Of a DNA stretch of 64,000 nt, positions 32,357 to 51,165 are shown one piece after another. How positions within the stretch are numbered: position 1 is the first letter of the stretch; the number at the start of each line of letters is the position of its first letter. Source of the DNA: Arthrobacter globiformis. Lineage in GTDB: Bacteria; Actinomycetota; Actinomycetes; Actinomycetales; Micrococcaceae. Made by a program: the position numbers and the translations under genes. The notes under the pieces are model-generated. The model was given only the letters and a program-made list of their open reading frames with translations, was not told the DNA's origin and searched no databases. The stretch lies in assembly GCF_003261175.1 (NCBI RefSeq), contig NZ_QLNP01000098.1:369478-433477 (forward strand). The letters are read 5' to 3'.

Positions 32357-32512
32357 GAATCCGGCCAAAGATTGATGGTTTTGCTCAATATTCCCACAGA
32401 ATGACGCACTCGGTACGCACTCCTGCCGCATTCTTTAGGTACCAGGATTCCATCCGTGCGAGCAGCCCCCACAAGGGGCAGGTTCGCCGGGCACACAGGC
32501 AAGGGCACGGGC

Positions 32513-33748
32513 ATGACCGTCTTTAGCGAACTTCGAATGCGTCCGGCTTCAGCTACCCGCTGGGGCTGGGATGCGTCCACCACCTCACGGCTTGCCATGG
32601 CCGGCGTCGTCATTTTCACTCTCCTGGTGGGAGCAAACCTGGCGACCCCGCTGTACCCGCTGCTGCAGGCCCGGCTCGGCATCAGTTCCCTGGGCATCAC
32701 CGTCGCGTTCGCCGCTTATGTCCTGGCCCTCGTGGCTACGCTCATGCTCGCGGGGCACTGGTCCGACCACATCGGGCGCCGTGCGGCCCTCCTCCTTGCC
32801 GTGCTGACGGGCCTCGCGGGCGGCCTGCTCTTTGCGAACGCGGACAGTCTTGCCGGGCTCTGCGGCGGCCGGGCGCTGCAGGGCGTTGCCGTGGCACTGG
32901 CTACGGGGGCGAGCTCCGCAGCGCTGCGCGAGCTGCTGCCGAAGCGCCCGGAGTGGGCCTCCCGTTTCACGCTGCTGGCATCGGCAGGGGGAGTGGCGGC
33001 AGGCCCCGCGATCGGCGGGATCCTTTCCCTCCTGCCGGGTGCCACCACCACGCCGTACCTCATCCATTCGCTCGTCCTGGCCGCCCTGCTGGTCCCGCTG
33101 TACCTGTTGCGCGCCCGTCCCACCATCAAACCTGCTGCCGGTCCCCGCCCGCTGAAGGTCCTGGCGCCGCGCCGTCCGACGGTGTCCCGGGAGGCCCGTG
33201 GTGCATTCTGGCTGGCAGCAGCCGTCGGCTTCCTCAGCTTTGCCGTTTTCGGCTTCTGCCTGTCCCTCGCGCCAAGTTACTTCGCGAAGATTCTCGTCAC
33301 CGATTCGCGGCCACTGATCGGCCTGCTGGCCGGGCTCACCCTGGGCGCTTCGGCCCTGAGCCAGCTGATCGCCGTCCGCAGCAGGTTCGCAGTGCCCGCG
33401 GGGCTGGCAGTGCTGGGCGGCGGGGTGGCGCTCCTCGCGGCGGCGGCTGCCGCGGGCAACCCGTGGCTGCTGGTTGCGGCGAGCCTGGCCGCAGGCGCCG
33501 GGCAGGGCGTAGCCTTCCGGACCGTCTTCAACGACGTGGCGGGCAAGGTGGAGGCGTCCCGGCATGCACAGATCGTCAGCACGGTTTATATGATCACCTA
33601 CCTCGGAAGTGCCGTGCCGGTGGTGGGGCTCGGGTTAGCAACGGCGGCGTACGGCCTGGAGACGGCCGTCGCCGGATTCGTGACTGCGTCCGCCTGCGCG
33701 GCGGGGCTGCTGGCCGTGATCACCTGGCGCCGCAGTATCCGCCGGTAG
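32513..33748 (+). CDS. MFS transporter
   Basis: About 411 residues from ATG 32513, twelve hydrophobic segments, with the MFS loop GHWSDHIGRRAALLLAVLTG between helices 2 and 3. The first helix region is VVIFTLLVGANLATPLYPLL. Homologues are proton-coupled drug or metabolite exporters; the substrate is not readable. AAGGGCACGGG lies before ATG 32513, while GTG 32456 is an alternative start. It is divergent from an Lrp regulator and followed by an ArsR-type regulator, either of which could control it. Confidence 0.85.
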   Translation: MTVFSELRMRPASATRWGWDASTTSRLAMAGVVIFTLLVGANLATPLYPLLQARLGISSLGITVAFAAYVLALVATLMLAGHWSDHIGRRAALLLAVLTGLAGGLLFANADSLAGLCGGRALQGVAVALATGASSAALRELLPKRPEWASRFTLLASAGGVAAGPAIGGILSLLPGATTTPYLIHSLVLAALLVPLYLLRARPTIKPAAGPRPLKVLAPRRPTVSREARGAFWLAAAVGFLSFAVFGFCLSLAPSYFAKILVTDSRPLIGLLAGLTLGASALSQLIAVRSRFAVPAGLAVLGGGVALLAAAAAAGNPWLLVAASLAAGAGQGVAFRTVFNDVAGKVEASRHAQIVSTVYMITYLGSAVPVVGLGLATAAYGLETAVAGFVTASACAAGLLAVITWRRSIRR

Positions 33749-33810
33749 CAGCGCCGGGAGGCACCCGCAGCAGCGGCGGGAGGCACCGCCGTCGTCGTCA
33801 AAACACCGAT

Positions 33811-33884
33811 TTGCAAAGAAACACTTGCAAAGAAGTGGTTGCAAAATAACCGTTGCAAAGAAATCTTTGCAAGAGTAGGCTTGC
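33811..33884. repeat. Five tandem 14-bp direct repeats (operator or iteron-like array)
   Basis: TTGCAA begins at 33811, 33825, 33839, 33853 and 33867, exactly 14 bases apart each time. The core is TTGCAAAGAA, and TTGC recurs once more at 33881. The array ends seven bases before the ArsR-type gene's ATG. The unit at 33853-33858 lies 17 bases before the -10 hexamer at 33876, so TTGCAA can also act as the -35. The last unit overlaps the -10. Confidence 0.9.
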
Positions 33885-33887
33885 CGT
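33876..33887 (+). promoter_or_regulatory. Leaderless promoter of the ArsR-type regulator inside the repeat array
   Basis: TAGGCT at 33876-33881, six bases, then ATG 33888, with TTGCAA at 33853-33858 at a 17-base spacing. Confidence 0.65.
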
Positions 33888-34643
33888 ATGGCCGCTAAGC
33901 CGAACATCGAAACCCCCGACGTGCAGGATCTGCCGTACCCCGTACGAAAGATGGACCCGGCCTCCCTCAAAGCCCTGGCACATCCGCTGCGCGTCCAGAT
34001 CCTGGAGATGCTGTCCCGGTACGGGGCGCAGACGGCGTGCAGCCTCGGCGACCTGCTGGGGGAGTCCAGCGGTTCCACGAGCTATCACCTGCGCCAGCTG
34101 GCCAAGCACGACTTCGTGCGGGAAGTGGAGGGAAAAGGCACGGCACGTGAGCGGTGGTGGGAGCGGCCGCGCGGCGCCATTGAGGTTTCGTCACCTGAGC
34201 TCGCAAGTTCGCCCGCCACCCAGGAAGCGTCACGGCTGGTCAACCGGGAGTTCGAACACCGCCGCCAGGCCGTGCTGGCCGATTTTATGGCGCACGGGGC
34301 GGACACCCTCGACCGCGAGTGGCTGGAAGCGGCCATCGTCAGCACCGCCAACGTGCGAATGAACGAAGAACAGCTGGCCGCGTATACACGGGCGATGGAC
34401 GCCTACTCCTACCGACTCCTGGAGGGGATCCGGGGTGAGGACGAGCAGGAAGGCGCCCGTCCCGTCCAGATCCACTTCAACGCCTTCCCCATCCTTGGCG
34501 TCCCCGCGTCCGCCGGCAGCCGCGGCCAGCGTAAAGCGCAGCCCGCGGAGCACGCCGCGGAGCACACCGCGGAGCACAATGCAGCCCAGGCGAAATACAG
34601 CAGCACAAAAGAGTCAACGAGCCCCGAAAGGAAAGAGCCATGA
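33888..34643 (+). CDS. ArsR-type helix-turn-helix regulator
   Basis: 251 residues. The winged helix-turn-helix lies near residues 24-90. It has SLKALAHPLRVQILEMLSRY, then SLGDLLGESSGSTSYHLRQL (recognition helix) and the wing FVREVEGKGTARERWWERPR. The middle is a helical domain with a predicted oligomer or ligand role, and the last 50 residues are low-complexity with AEH repeats (AEHAAEHTAEHNAAQ). It probably binds the 14-bp array that overlaps its own promoter. ATG 34640 of the next gene overlaps its stop. Confidence 0.85.
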   Translation: MAAKPNIETPDVQDLPYPVRKMDPASLKALAHPLRVQILEMLSRYGAQTACSLGDLLGESSGSTSYHLRQLAKHDFVREVEGKGTARERWWERPRGAIEVSSPELASSPATQEASRLVNREFEHRRQAVLADFMAHGADTLDREWLEAAIVSTANVRMNEEQLAAYTRAMDAYSYRLLEGIRGEDEQEGARPVQIHFNAFPILGVPASAGSRGQRKAQPAEHAAEHTAEHNAAQAKYSSTKESTSPERKEP

Positions 34644-34876
34644 GTGCTCTATCGGTCAACCAGTCCGTCACCGGCTACCGCCGTGCCTCCGTGCTGGAAG
34701 CCGTGGCCGTCCATATCGGCGCCGGCCTGGTGGGATGGGCGGAGCGGCGCCGGGTTGTTCCCGAGGAAACCGTCCGGTTGCAGCGGGACGCCGCTCGGCG
34801 CCGAGATGAACTGAACCTTCTCCGCGGAGACATTATCGGCGCAGCCCACTCCGGCCTGCTGCTTTCGCGCCGCTAG
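34640..34876 (+). CDS. Small protein coupled to the ArsR-type regulator
   Basis: 78 residues. ATGA overlap with the regulator stop shows coupled translation. An N-terminal stretch VTGYRRASVLEAVAVHIGAG LVGWAERRRV-like (residues 10-38) is amphipathic, followed by a basic helix with RLQRDAARRRDELNLLRGDI. No family recognised. It may be an anti-regulator or a small membrane-associated partner; there is no further evidence. Confidence 0.6.
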   Translation: MSALSVNQSVTGYRRASVLEAVAVHIGAGLVGWAERRRVVPEETVRLQRDAARRRDELNLLRGDIIGAAHSGLLLSRR

Positions 34877-34924
34877 GCAGCATCGGGCGGGTTGTCCCGG
34901 TGCAGGCTCAGTCCCGGTGCGGGC

Positions 34925-35434
34925 TCAGTCCTGATCCGGCAGCGGCCCGTGGTTGCCTGGCATGTGCTCGAACACCAGCGTGGTTTCGGTGTGGCCCACC
35001 ACGGGGTCCGTGGCGAGGTTGTCCAGAACCCAGTCCCGCAGGTCCTCGGTGGTGGCAACGGCGATGTGCAGCAGGTAGTCGACCGAGCCCGACGTGTGGA
35101 AGGTTGACAGGACGGCAGGCAGCTTGGGGACCCGGGAGGTGAACCGGTCGATCTGCTCCCGGTCGTGGGCGCGGAGCCGGACGGCGATGAGGGCCTGCAC
35201 TGACCGGCCAATCGCGGAAAGGCTCAGTTTCGCCTCAAACCCCTGGATGATGCCCCGGTCCGAGAGCGCGCGCGTGCGCATGAGGGCGGTCGAGGGGGCG
35301 ATGCCCACCAGTTCAGCCAGCTGCTTGTTGGATATCCGGGCGTCGTCCACAAGTGCCGCCAGCAGCCGCTCGTCGATGGCGTCGAGGGGTTCGTGCCCCG
35401 CCGCCGGGCGAATATTCTTCGCGTTGCTGCTCAC
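34925..35434 (-). CDS. Lrp/AsnC family transcriptional regulator
   Basis: 169 residues. The helix-turn-helix DERLLAALVDDARISNKQLA and GIAPSTALMRTRALSDRGII is followed by the RAM domain with VLSTFHTSGSVDYLLHIAVA. It belongs to a different subgroup from the copy at 31850 (they differ at most positions). ATG 35434 follows GGAGGATCCGTGAGC-like sequence on the minus strand. Its target is not evident; the MFS gene upstream is separated by 118 bases. Confidence 0.88.
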   Translation of the reverse strand: MSSNAKNIRPAAGHEPLDAIDERLLAALVDDARISNKQLAELVGIAPSTALMRTRALSDRGIIQGFEAKLSLSAIGRSVQALIAVRLRAHDREQIDRFTSRVPKLPAVLSTFHTSGSVDYLLHIAVATTEDLRDWVLDNLATDPVVGHTETTLVFEHMPGNHGPLPDQD

Positions 35435-41890: not shown

Positions 41891-43048
41891 GTGAAAAATT
41901 CTTCCGGCACTCGTGCCAACCAGCTTCAAAACCAAACCCCTAACCCAACCCCTTTTCTAAACACTGATTTCATAAACATTGAGCCCCTGCCCGGCCCAAG
42001 CCAGTACGGTTTCACGGAGGCCAAGGCGCAGCACTTCGCGGCGCATCCGGCCGGCGGCGCCGAGGCTGCCGCGCGCGTCGTCCGGGTGGACCGGAACCGG
42101 ATCGTCGCGGCCACGGCCGTCGGACTGGTGCACCTGCCGTATCCGCCCGGTGCCGTGCCGGCCACCGGCGACTGGGTCTGGCTCGGCCGCAACAGGGCCG
42201 CGGAACCGGCCGTCGTCGGCGTTCTTCCGCGCACGTCGGAGCTGAGCCGTAAACGTGCCTTCGACCCGTCCACCCAGGCGCAGGTCCTCGCAGCGAACAT
42301 CGACATGGTGGGCGTGGTTGTTCCCGTCGACCGTCCGCTGAGCCACAACAGGCTCGAACGGACCCTGGTGGCCGTCTGGGATTCCGGCGCCACCCCGCTG
42401 GTGATCATCACGAAGGCGGACCTGGCGGACATCGCCGACGACGTCGTCGGGAAGGTGATCCTGCAAGCTGCCGGGGTGGATGTGGTGACCACCTCGGCGG
42501 AGCAGGGGGACGGCATCGACGAACTGCTCTCCAAGGTGCAGCCGGGGTGGACGCTCGCCCTGCTGGGCCCTTCAGGCGCCGGGAAGTCCACCCTCATCAA
42601 CGCGCTGGTGGGGCACCACGTCCGGTCCACCGGGGACGTGCGGGCCACTGACGGCAGGGGGCGGCACACCACGACGTCGCGGGAGCTGGTGCCGCTGCCC
42701 AATGGCGCCGTGCTGATGGACACTCCCGGTGTCCGCGGTTTCGGCCTGTTCGACGCCGAGGACGGCATGGAGGAGATGTTCGGCGATCTGCACGTGCTCT
42801 TCGAGCAGTGCCGCTTCTCCGACTGCGCCCATGACCGGGAACCCGGGTGCGCCGTCCGCGCGGCGCTCGACGACGGGTCCCTTGAGGAGAGGCGGTGGGC
42901 CAGTTACGTCAAGCTCCAGCGCGAACTCGCGGCCCTGGATCGGCGCCACGACGCTGCGGCGCGAAGGGCGTACCAGCGGGAATGGCACCAGAAGGTGGTG
43001 GTGGCCGGGCGGAGCCAGCGGGCCGCGGAACGCTACCGACATTCCTAG
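41891..43048 (+). CDS. rsgA: Ribosome small-subunit-dependent GTPase A
   Basis: 385 residues. A circularly permuted GTPase that helps mature the 30S subunit. Order of motifs: an OB-fold domain (about 45-150), G4 as ITKADLAD, then G1 as GPSGAGKST (Lys 232), G3 as DTPGVRGF, and the zinc-binding tail CRFSDCAHDREPGC. The start was taken at GTG 41891, where GAGG lies seven bases upstream. The first 35 codons are AT-rich and Asn/Thr/Pro-rich, unlike the rest of the gene. A large hairpin follows the stop. Confidence 0.9.
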   Translation: MKNSSGTRANQLQNQTPNPTPFLNTDFINIEPLPGPSQYGFTEAKAQHFAAHPAGGAEAAARVVRVDRNRIVAATAVGLVHLPYPPGAVPATGDWVWLGRNRAAEPAVVGVLPRTSELSRKRAFDPSTQAQVLAANIDMVGVVVPVDRPLSHNRLERTLVAVWDSGATPLVIITKADLADIADDVVGKVILQAAGVDVVTTSAEQGDGIDELLSKVQPGWTLALLGPSGAGKSTLINALVGHHVRSTGDVRATDGRGRHTTTSRELVPLPNGAVLMDTPGVRGFGLFDAEDGMEEMFGDLHVLFEQCRFSDCAHDREPGCAVRAALDDGSLEERRWASYVKLQRELAALDRRHDAAARRAYQREWHQKVVVAGRSQRAAERYRHS

Positions 43049-50862: not shown

Positions 50863-51165
50863 GTGCAGCCCCGTTGGCGGCGAATGCCAGTTGCATGGTC
50901 GCGGTCCTTTGCCTGTGGATGGTGCGTGCGCGGTGGGTTAATCAACTCTATCCATAGCTGTATCACCGGGCTGCGACATTGTTGATAACGCGGCATTTGC
51001 AGCGACTGCTAATAACCCGGCAAACTGGGTGGTCCGGCATTTTGATCGCTGGCATCTTTGATCGCCCTACTTTTCCGATAGTGGGACGGCGCGCCTAGGA
51101 TTGCAGTGTCCTGCTGACCAGCCAGGCACCCGACCAGCCGAGAAACCCGACCAGCTAGGAATCCC
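50863..51165. other. 303-bp divergent intergenic region
   Basis: No gene. Between xseA and the 51166 gene. TAGGAT at 51096-51101 is a candidate -10 for the plus strand. Otherwise I see only AT-richer spacer around 50935-51010. Confidence 0.5.

Follow-up and report, generated by a model that had tools for sequence, protein, structure and literature searches.

A 14-bp phased array of putative half-operators at the promoter of an ArsR-type regulator gene in Arthrobacter globiformis

In the ArsR/SmtB family, CmtR of Mycobacterium tuberculosis is reportedly a cadmium sensor that acts cooperatively on multiple operator sites, as the title of a 2009 study has it. Rv2034 of M. tuberculosis is an ArsR-like autorepressor that forms dimers in vitro. 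Its site in its own promoter consists of two inverted repeats of 8 bp, 4 bp apart, and is protected from -30 to +3 on the coding strand; according to the part of the report available to us, a single half-site suffices for binding and both together bind better (PMC3338718). The operators of SmtB/ArsR proteins such as AzuR are described, in the accessible part of the source, as 12-2-12 repeats of 26 bp, with one or two per promoter (PMC8790569). Finally, the winged-helix protein TubR binds several direct repeats, tubC, upstream of its own operon, represses this operon and forms a filament around the DNA, as far as the available text of that report describes it (PMC5016525).

The locus considered here lies in a stretch of 64,000 nucleotides from the A. 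globiformis contig NZ_QLNP01000098.1, referred to below as the window. Re-reading of the window bore out the original prediction that the hexamer TTGCAA starts at positions 33811, 33825, 33839, 33853 and 33867, with a period of exactly 14 bp. The hexamer as such was not enriched in the window (7 found versus a mean of 8.0 expected), and it is the spacing alone that is remarkable. The arrangement TTGCAA-N8-TTGCAA occurred four times in the whole 4,880,416-bp genome (each occurrence also being read on the other strand), always within the array, and its reversed control gave 0 matches in the same genome. No evenly spaced chain of more than two copies arose when the window was shuffled 20 times and positions 33701-34000 were shuffled 2000 times. 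When all 4096 hexamers were searched in the window for chains of at least four at spacings of 7-59, only TTGCAA (five copies) and TGCAAA (four copies) were recovered. A repeat finder also marked further short tandem repeats at 41930-41982 and 51036-51161 of the window.

The repeats had been predicted to be five equal units; instead, copies 1 to 4 proved to be directional half-sites, and the fifth is the inverted form CTTTGCAA. The flanking bases reveal the orientation, with TTGCAAAG at copies 1, 2 and 4, TTGCAAAA at copy 3 and, since CT precedes it, CTTTGCAA at the fifth. The inversion of the fifth unit was hidden because TTGCAA is its own reverse complement. We therefore read the hexamers as the junctions between four abutting 14-bp putative operators with the core CAAAG-N4-CTTTG (a 5-4-5 layout); when four such cores stand end to end, each TTG|CAA junction shows as TTGCAA. 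Three of the operators, on the plus strand, were assigned from their sequence and the phase rule as presumed binding sites: putative operator 1 at 33814-33827 (CAAAG-AAAC-ACTTG, with a strong left arm and a degenerate right arm), putative operator 2 at 33828-33841 (CAAAG-AAGT-GGTTG) and putative operator 3 at 33842-33855 (CAAAA-TAAC-CGTTG). The core of putative operator 4, at 33856-33869, lies within the perfect palindrome TTGCAAAG-AAAT-CTTTGCAA (33853-33872, no strand), our proposed nucleation site. This is the sole perfect palindrome among the units of the array and the sole one of its form without a mismatch in the genome. A genomic search for a second target yielded nothing above background (3 matches beyond the array, each with 3 mismatches, versus 6 at up to 3 mismatches for the control), which argues for a local regulator.

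The array lies on the promoter of the gene downstream. As the original prediction held, copy 4 (33853-33858, plus strand) fits a -35 box; it shares bases with the left end of the palindrome and is separated by a 17-bp spacer from TAGGCT (33876-33881, plus strand), a -10 box of the form TAnnnT assigned by consensus only. The ATG of the regulator gene stands at 33888, 6 nt after TAGGCT, and the promoter is apparently leaderless, as had been predicted, judged by spacing only. The fifth copy was thought to overlap the -10, but its hexamer (33867-33872) stops 3 bp short of it. Thus, an inverted repeat overlaps the regulator's own promoter, covering the consensus -35, reaching up to 3 bp before the consensus -10 and occupying most of the stretch between them, and four operator-like sites abut at this one promoter. 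Autorepression is suggested by where the palindrome sits, on the core promoter. An array of alternative -35 boxes, which had also been put forward, finds some encouragement in the resemblance of TTGCAA to a -35, but it was rejected because a TAnnnT follows at 16-18 bp for copy 4 only and is lacking at this distance from copies 1-3.

The adjacent gene (33888-34643, plus strand) encodes a DNA-binding protein of 251 aa, as expected for a regulator, with an ArsR/HTH_20 winged helix. Curated models placed it in this class, with PF12840 scoring 35.8 bits (cut-off 27; E 8e-9) and PF01022 scoring 30.1 bits (cut-off 22; E 4.5e-7), and its profile matches to 3cuo and 6j05 span the DNA-binding part only. 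The ArsR/SmtB metalloregulator model NF033788 scored 40.2 bits against a cut-off of 55, and the protein was therefore not filed as a metalloregulator. Within the gene, at 34543-34578, three copies of the 12-bp repeat CCGCGGAGCACA encode an Ala-Glu-His-rich stretch of the C-terminal tail.

We consider it likely that the repeats constitute an autoregulatory operator array for this ArsR/HTH_20 regulator. The proposal starts from the positions, phase and symmetry of the units, the promoter spacing, the association with the regulator and the conservation of the arrangement, and it would entail binding, repression, cooperativity and an inducer. Each regulator dimer would recognise a 14-bp core, CAAAG-N4-CTTTG, and a dimer on the palindrome would exclude RNA polymerase, since the palindrome covers the -35 of the apparently leaderless promoter and ends shortly before its -10. 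The upstream operators combine one strong arm (CAAAG) with one weak arm (TTG). This suggests an assembly of dimers that begins on the palindrome and proceeds outwards, each added dimer being held by one good arm and by its neighbor. Each would be turned by ~120 degrees (a 14-bp step, with 10.5 bp to the turn), so that three sites would take up 42 bp, or four turns; the predicted step of about a third of a turn thus stands, and it is conserved in relatives. It counts against the proposal that ArsR/SmtB operators are 12-2-12 repeats of 26 bp in the accessible part of their description (PMC8790569), so that steps of 14 bp would need overlapping footprints on different faces of the DNA. With the array, both the regulator and a coupled 78-aa partner protein would be repressed more steeply or more tightly.

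An arrangement in which regulator bound upstream aids RNA polymerase, and occupation of the palindrome at high concentration switches the promoter off, seems improbable to us. The upstream hexamers start at -77, -63 and -49 from the start codon, and the TTGCAA of the -35 is a weak match to TTGACA, as might suit such an activator platform. However, activators follow face-of-helix rules, which a step of a third of a turn is unlike, and the best site covers the core promoter. In the parts of the reports available, Rv2034 is said to activate another gene, dosR (PMC3338718), whereas at their own or target promoters both Rv2034 and AzuR figure as repressors (PMC3338718, PMC8790569).

To relate the array to its regulator, we surveyed 297 genomes of the same order for a pattern of three half-sites, with up to 2 mismatches, and for a homologue of the regulator at E ≤ 1e-20. 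The pattern was found in 58 of the 297 genomes and the homologue in 72, with both present in 51 (Fisher p 1.4e-32, relatedness ignored); the reversed control of the pattern gave one match, in genome G276. In all 51 genomes with both, the array preceded the part of the homologue that matched by 24-516 bp, and none of the 58 had an array elsewhere while a homologue was present. Of these 51 genomes with an array next to a regulator, 13 were fetched and read. The 7 other arrays adjoin a more distant homologue of the regulator (tblastn E 8e-11 to 3e-19, fetched loci only). From the genomes with a regulator and no pattern, 20 of 21 loci were fetched (G189 was left out); a lag of 14 gave the strongest mean upstream signal among these 20 and was the best single lag in 7. 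A second survey covered 246 genomes of the class, members of the order included; a homologue at E ≤ 1e-15 was present in 110, from which we fetched the 30 best loci. Among these, 19 lay outside the order, and 18 of the 19 had a pair of motifs 14 bp apart, the next commonest distances being 28 bp (13 loci) and 42 bp (4 loci), with a motif list that was compiled after these loci had been viewed. The 19 loci are far from independent, since 16 come from two genera (11 from one, 5 from another); the other 3 belong to three families, and one of them, L152, lacks the pair. By its motifs and phase, the array recurs with the regulator within and beyond the order.

We next consider the relatives of the window's locus, ranked by protein similarity, using the best 80 of 210 loci. 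In a region from 400 bp upstream of the protein match to 30 bp into it, at least two TTGCAA hexamers stood exactly 14 bp apart in 65 relatives; there was one hexamer in 9, two at 28 bp in 1 and none in 5. The five without TTGCAA (L045, L050, L072, L079 and L082) have a palindrome of 14/16 or 15/16 together with phased units ~450-575 bp upstream, so that a palindrome of at least 13/16 was present upstream in all 80 relatives, far upstream in these 5. The frame of the regulator is closed between array and match in 4 of the 5 far-array loci, and the leaderless layout is therefore not universal. The far arrays have a -10 of their own, and the distance to the regulator would accommodate a leader or an unrecognised first gene.

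For alignment, 20 loci fetched from genomes found by the pattern were added to 81 loci (the window included), and 95 of these 101 were kept. In the 6 that were dropped, the 330 bp preceding the profile contained no 14/16 palindrome; these loci were L038 (13/16) and the five with far arrays. When the 95 loci were aligned on the palindrome, a strong half-site appeared at -14 and weaker ones at -28 and -42, with TAnnnT at +23 to +28. Allowing up to 1 mismatch, the number of upstream half-sites was 0 in 7 loci, 1 in 28, 2 in 34, 3 in 23 and 4 in 3. All 112 exact copies of TGCAAAG in the 150 bp upstream were in the 14-bp phase. Comparison of near relatives, in four pairs, gave 0-1 differences at the 38 positions of the half-site cores and 4-8 at the 24 spacer positions. 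A further CTTTGCA (up to 1 mismatch) lies downstream in 23 of the 95 loci. The flanking operators thus have strong outer arms, upstream in the window and in these 23 loci also downstream, as would fit nucleation on the palindrome and outward addition. The TTG of the -35 is kept in 83 loci, and TAnnnT occupies the expected offset in 68 and is missing there in 27, in 4 of which the -10 is found one unit earlier, inside the palindrome.

These data bear on a simpler reading, that regulation is entirely the work of a single dimer on the palindrome and the upstream half-sites are relics or weak titrating decoys that take no part in cooperative assembly. It could draw on the last unit being the only perfect palindrome, on the 7 of 95 loci that have a palindrome and no phased upstream half-site, by which the row of half-sites is not indispensable, and on the half-site binding documented for Rv2034 in the available part of that report (PMC3338718). 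We nevertheless regard it as unlikely, because 88 of the 95 loci have at least one phased extra half-site, all the exact ones are in phase, and the cores are conserved while the spacers drift; decoys, moreover, would not need a phase.

The number of repeats is labile. A quick tree, with weak support for 51 of its 117 inner branches, requires by parsimony no fewer than 35 changes in copy number. The original prediction, which was to fall if repeat number and spacing were not kept in close relatives, therefore holds for the spacing and fails for the number. Lability would suit repeats left behind by replication slippage and devoid of regulatory meaning, and the -10 one unit earlier in 4 of 95 loci would suit a chain of alternative -35 boxes. 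Both explanations are very hard to credit, the chain for lack of -10 partners and slippage because it fails to explain why the phase is kept in other families whose spacers have drifted, or why changed motifs keep the same phase.

Such changed motifs were found in several of the loci fetched from genomes with a regulator and no pattern. TGCAGAG units occupy the same 14-bp frame in L109, L111, L113, L121 and L127; L123 has ACAAG-N4-CTTGT next to ACAAC-N4-CTTGT, and L110 has CTTTC|GAAAG, again in the 14-bp frame. Some loci with the regulator only had no clear array in the 260 bp upstream that were viewed. Three loci, L123, L110 and L126, encode regulator homologues with an altered recognition helix, and the array of L126 looks similar and less regular. 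Gln at residue 63 of the recognition helix went with TGCAGAG/CTCTGCA arrays, which were present in 12 of 13 Gln loci versus 9 of 102 Ser/Ala loci. Covariation of Gln63 with the G-containing motif was rejected, since the tree places it as a single event; as one evolutionary event, the link is no independent proof of contact.

The operon comprises the regulator and a 78-aa protein gene (34640-34876, plus strand), a conserved partner whose start codon overlaps the regulator stop by 4 bases (ATGA), and is followed by a convergent Lrp-type regulator gene. Between the convergent ends of the latter two genes, a 17-bp tandem repeat occupies 34894-34931 of the window. An iterated profile search, with one match weaker than 1e-5, placed relatives of the 78-aa protein after the regulator in 66 of 81 loci, the window included. 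The 4-base overlap recurs in 58 of these 66 (55 ATGA, 3 GTGA). The family comprises proteins of 60-100 aa with a common core of roughly G-x-A-L-V-x-W-A-x-R-R; among 24 members scanned no Pfam family emerged, four families matching one member each at E 0.019 or weaker. Among the 15 loci without the small protein, the three from Microbacterium that were put to Pfam (L058, L071 and L077) have a downstream MFS_1/MFS_3 transporter. MFS fragments also occur downstream in L090, L091 and L095. At L101 a gene diverges from the regulator across the array, and its fragment matches MFS models just above the cut-off; the array between them could therefore serve two promoters. In the window, the upstream neighbor on the same strand is an MFS transporter gene (32456-33748 as the longest frame, start uncertain; PF07690 E 1.3e-26 for the searched 32546-33745), for which control by the array is only conceivable.

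A more general model can be offered tentatively, as something we would not yet bet on. An ArsR-type repressor would nucleate on one palindrome at a leaderless promoter and polymerise along half-operators in 14-bp steps, with three dimers for every four turns. The length of the array would be a freely evolving dial of repression, the small coupled protein a co-regulator or effector, and the mode common across Actinomycetes. The loci form a natural series in which the number of sites varies freely while their phase is fixed, and in which the frame is constant across changing motifs. The packing and cooperation of repressor dimers on DNA can therefore be tested directly, since the series supplies dozens of ready-made variants. 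A two-gene unit common to many relatives in the order is indicated as well, made up of an ArsR regulator and a 60-100 aa protein without a Pfam family.

By analogy, the array may work like the Rv2034, CmtR, SmtB/ArsR and TubR systems, but the membership established here is that of the ArsR/HTH_20 domain only. Multiple operator sites liken it to CmtR, by the title of that study alone. Among the literature matches listed, none described this array and nothing on the motif was tied to this regulator, subscription papers being mostly outside the scope of the search. As for TubR, both systems have a winged-helix protein and repeats upstream of its own operon, but the available account of tubC concerns a plasmid centromere with TubZ (PMC5016525), whereas the present contig is of chromosomal type and the operon is different, with no TubZ gene in the part read here, unlike a TubRZC partition system. 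With AzuR-type operators, the array shares an inverted repeat over the predicted -35, and one repeat in the accessible part of that source can, in our own reading, be written TGAAC-N4-GTTCA, the 5-4-5 layout seen here; unlike it, those operators are described as 12-2-12 and not as a row in 14-bp phase, and AzuR acts on a distant gene (PMC8790569). Rv2034 is likewise an ArsR-type regulator, and the palindrome in its promoter is laid out as here. In contrast to the present locus, the available part of the report gives it one palindrome, describes no phased array and has it act on other genes, on dosR positively, whereas here no second genomic site stood out (PMC3338718). Autorepression by ArsR proteins is thus known; what is new is the variant in which putative half-operators stand in a phased row and a small partner protein goes with them.
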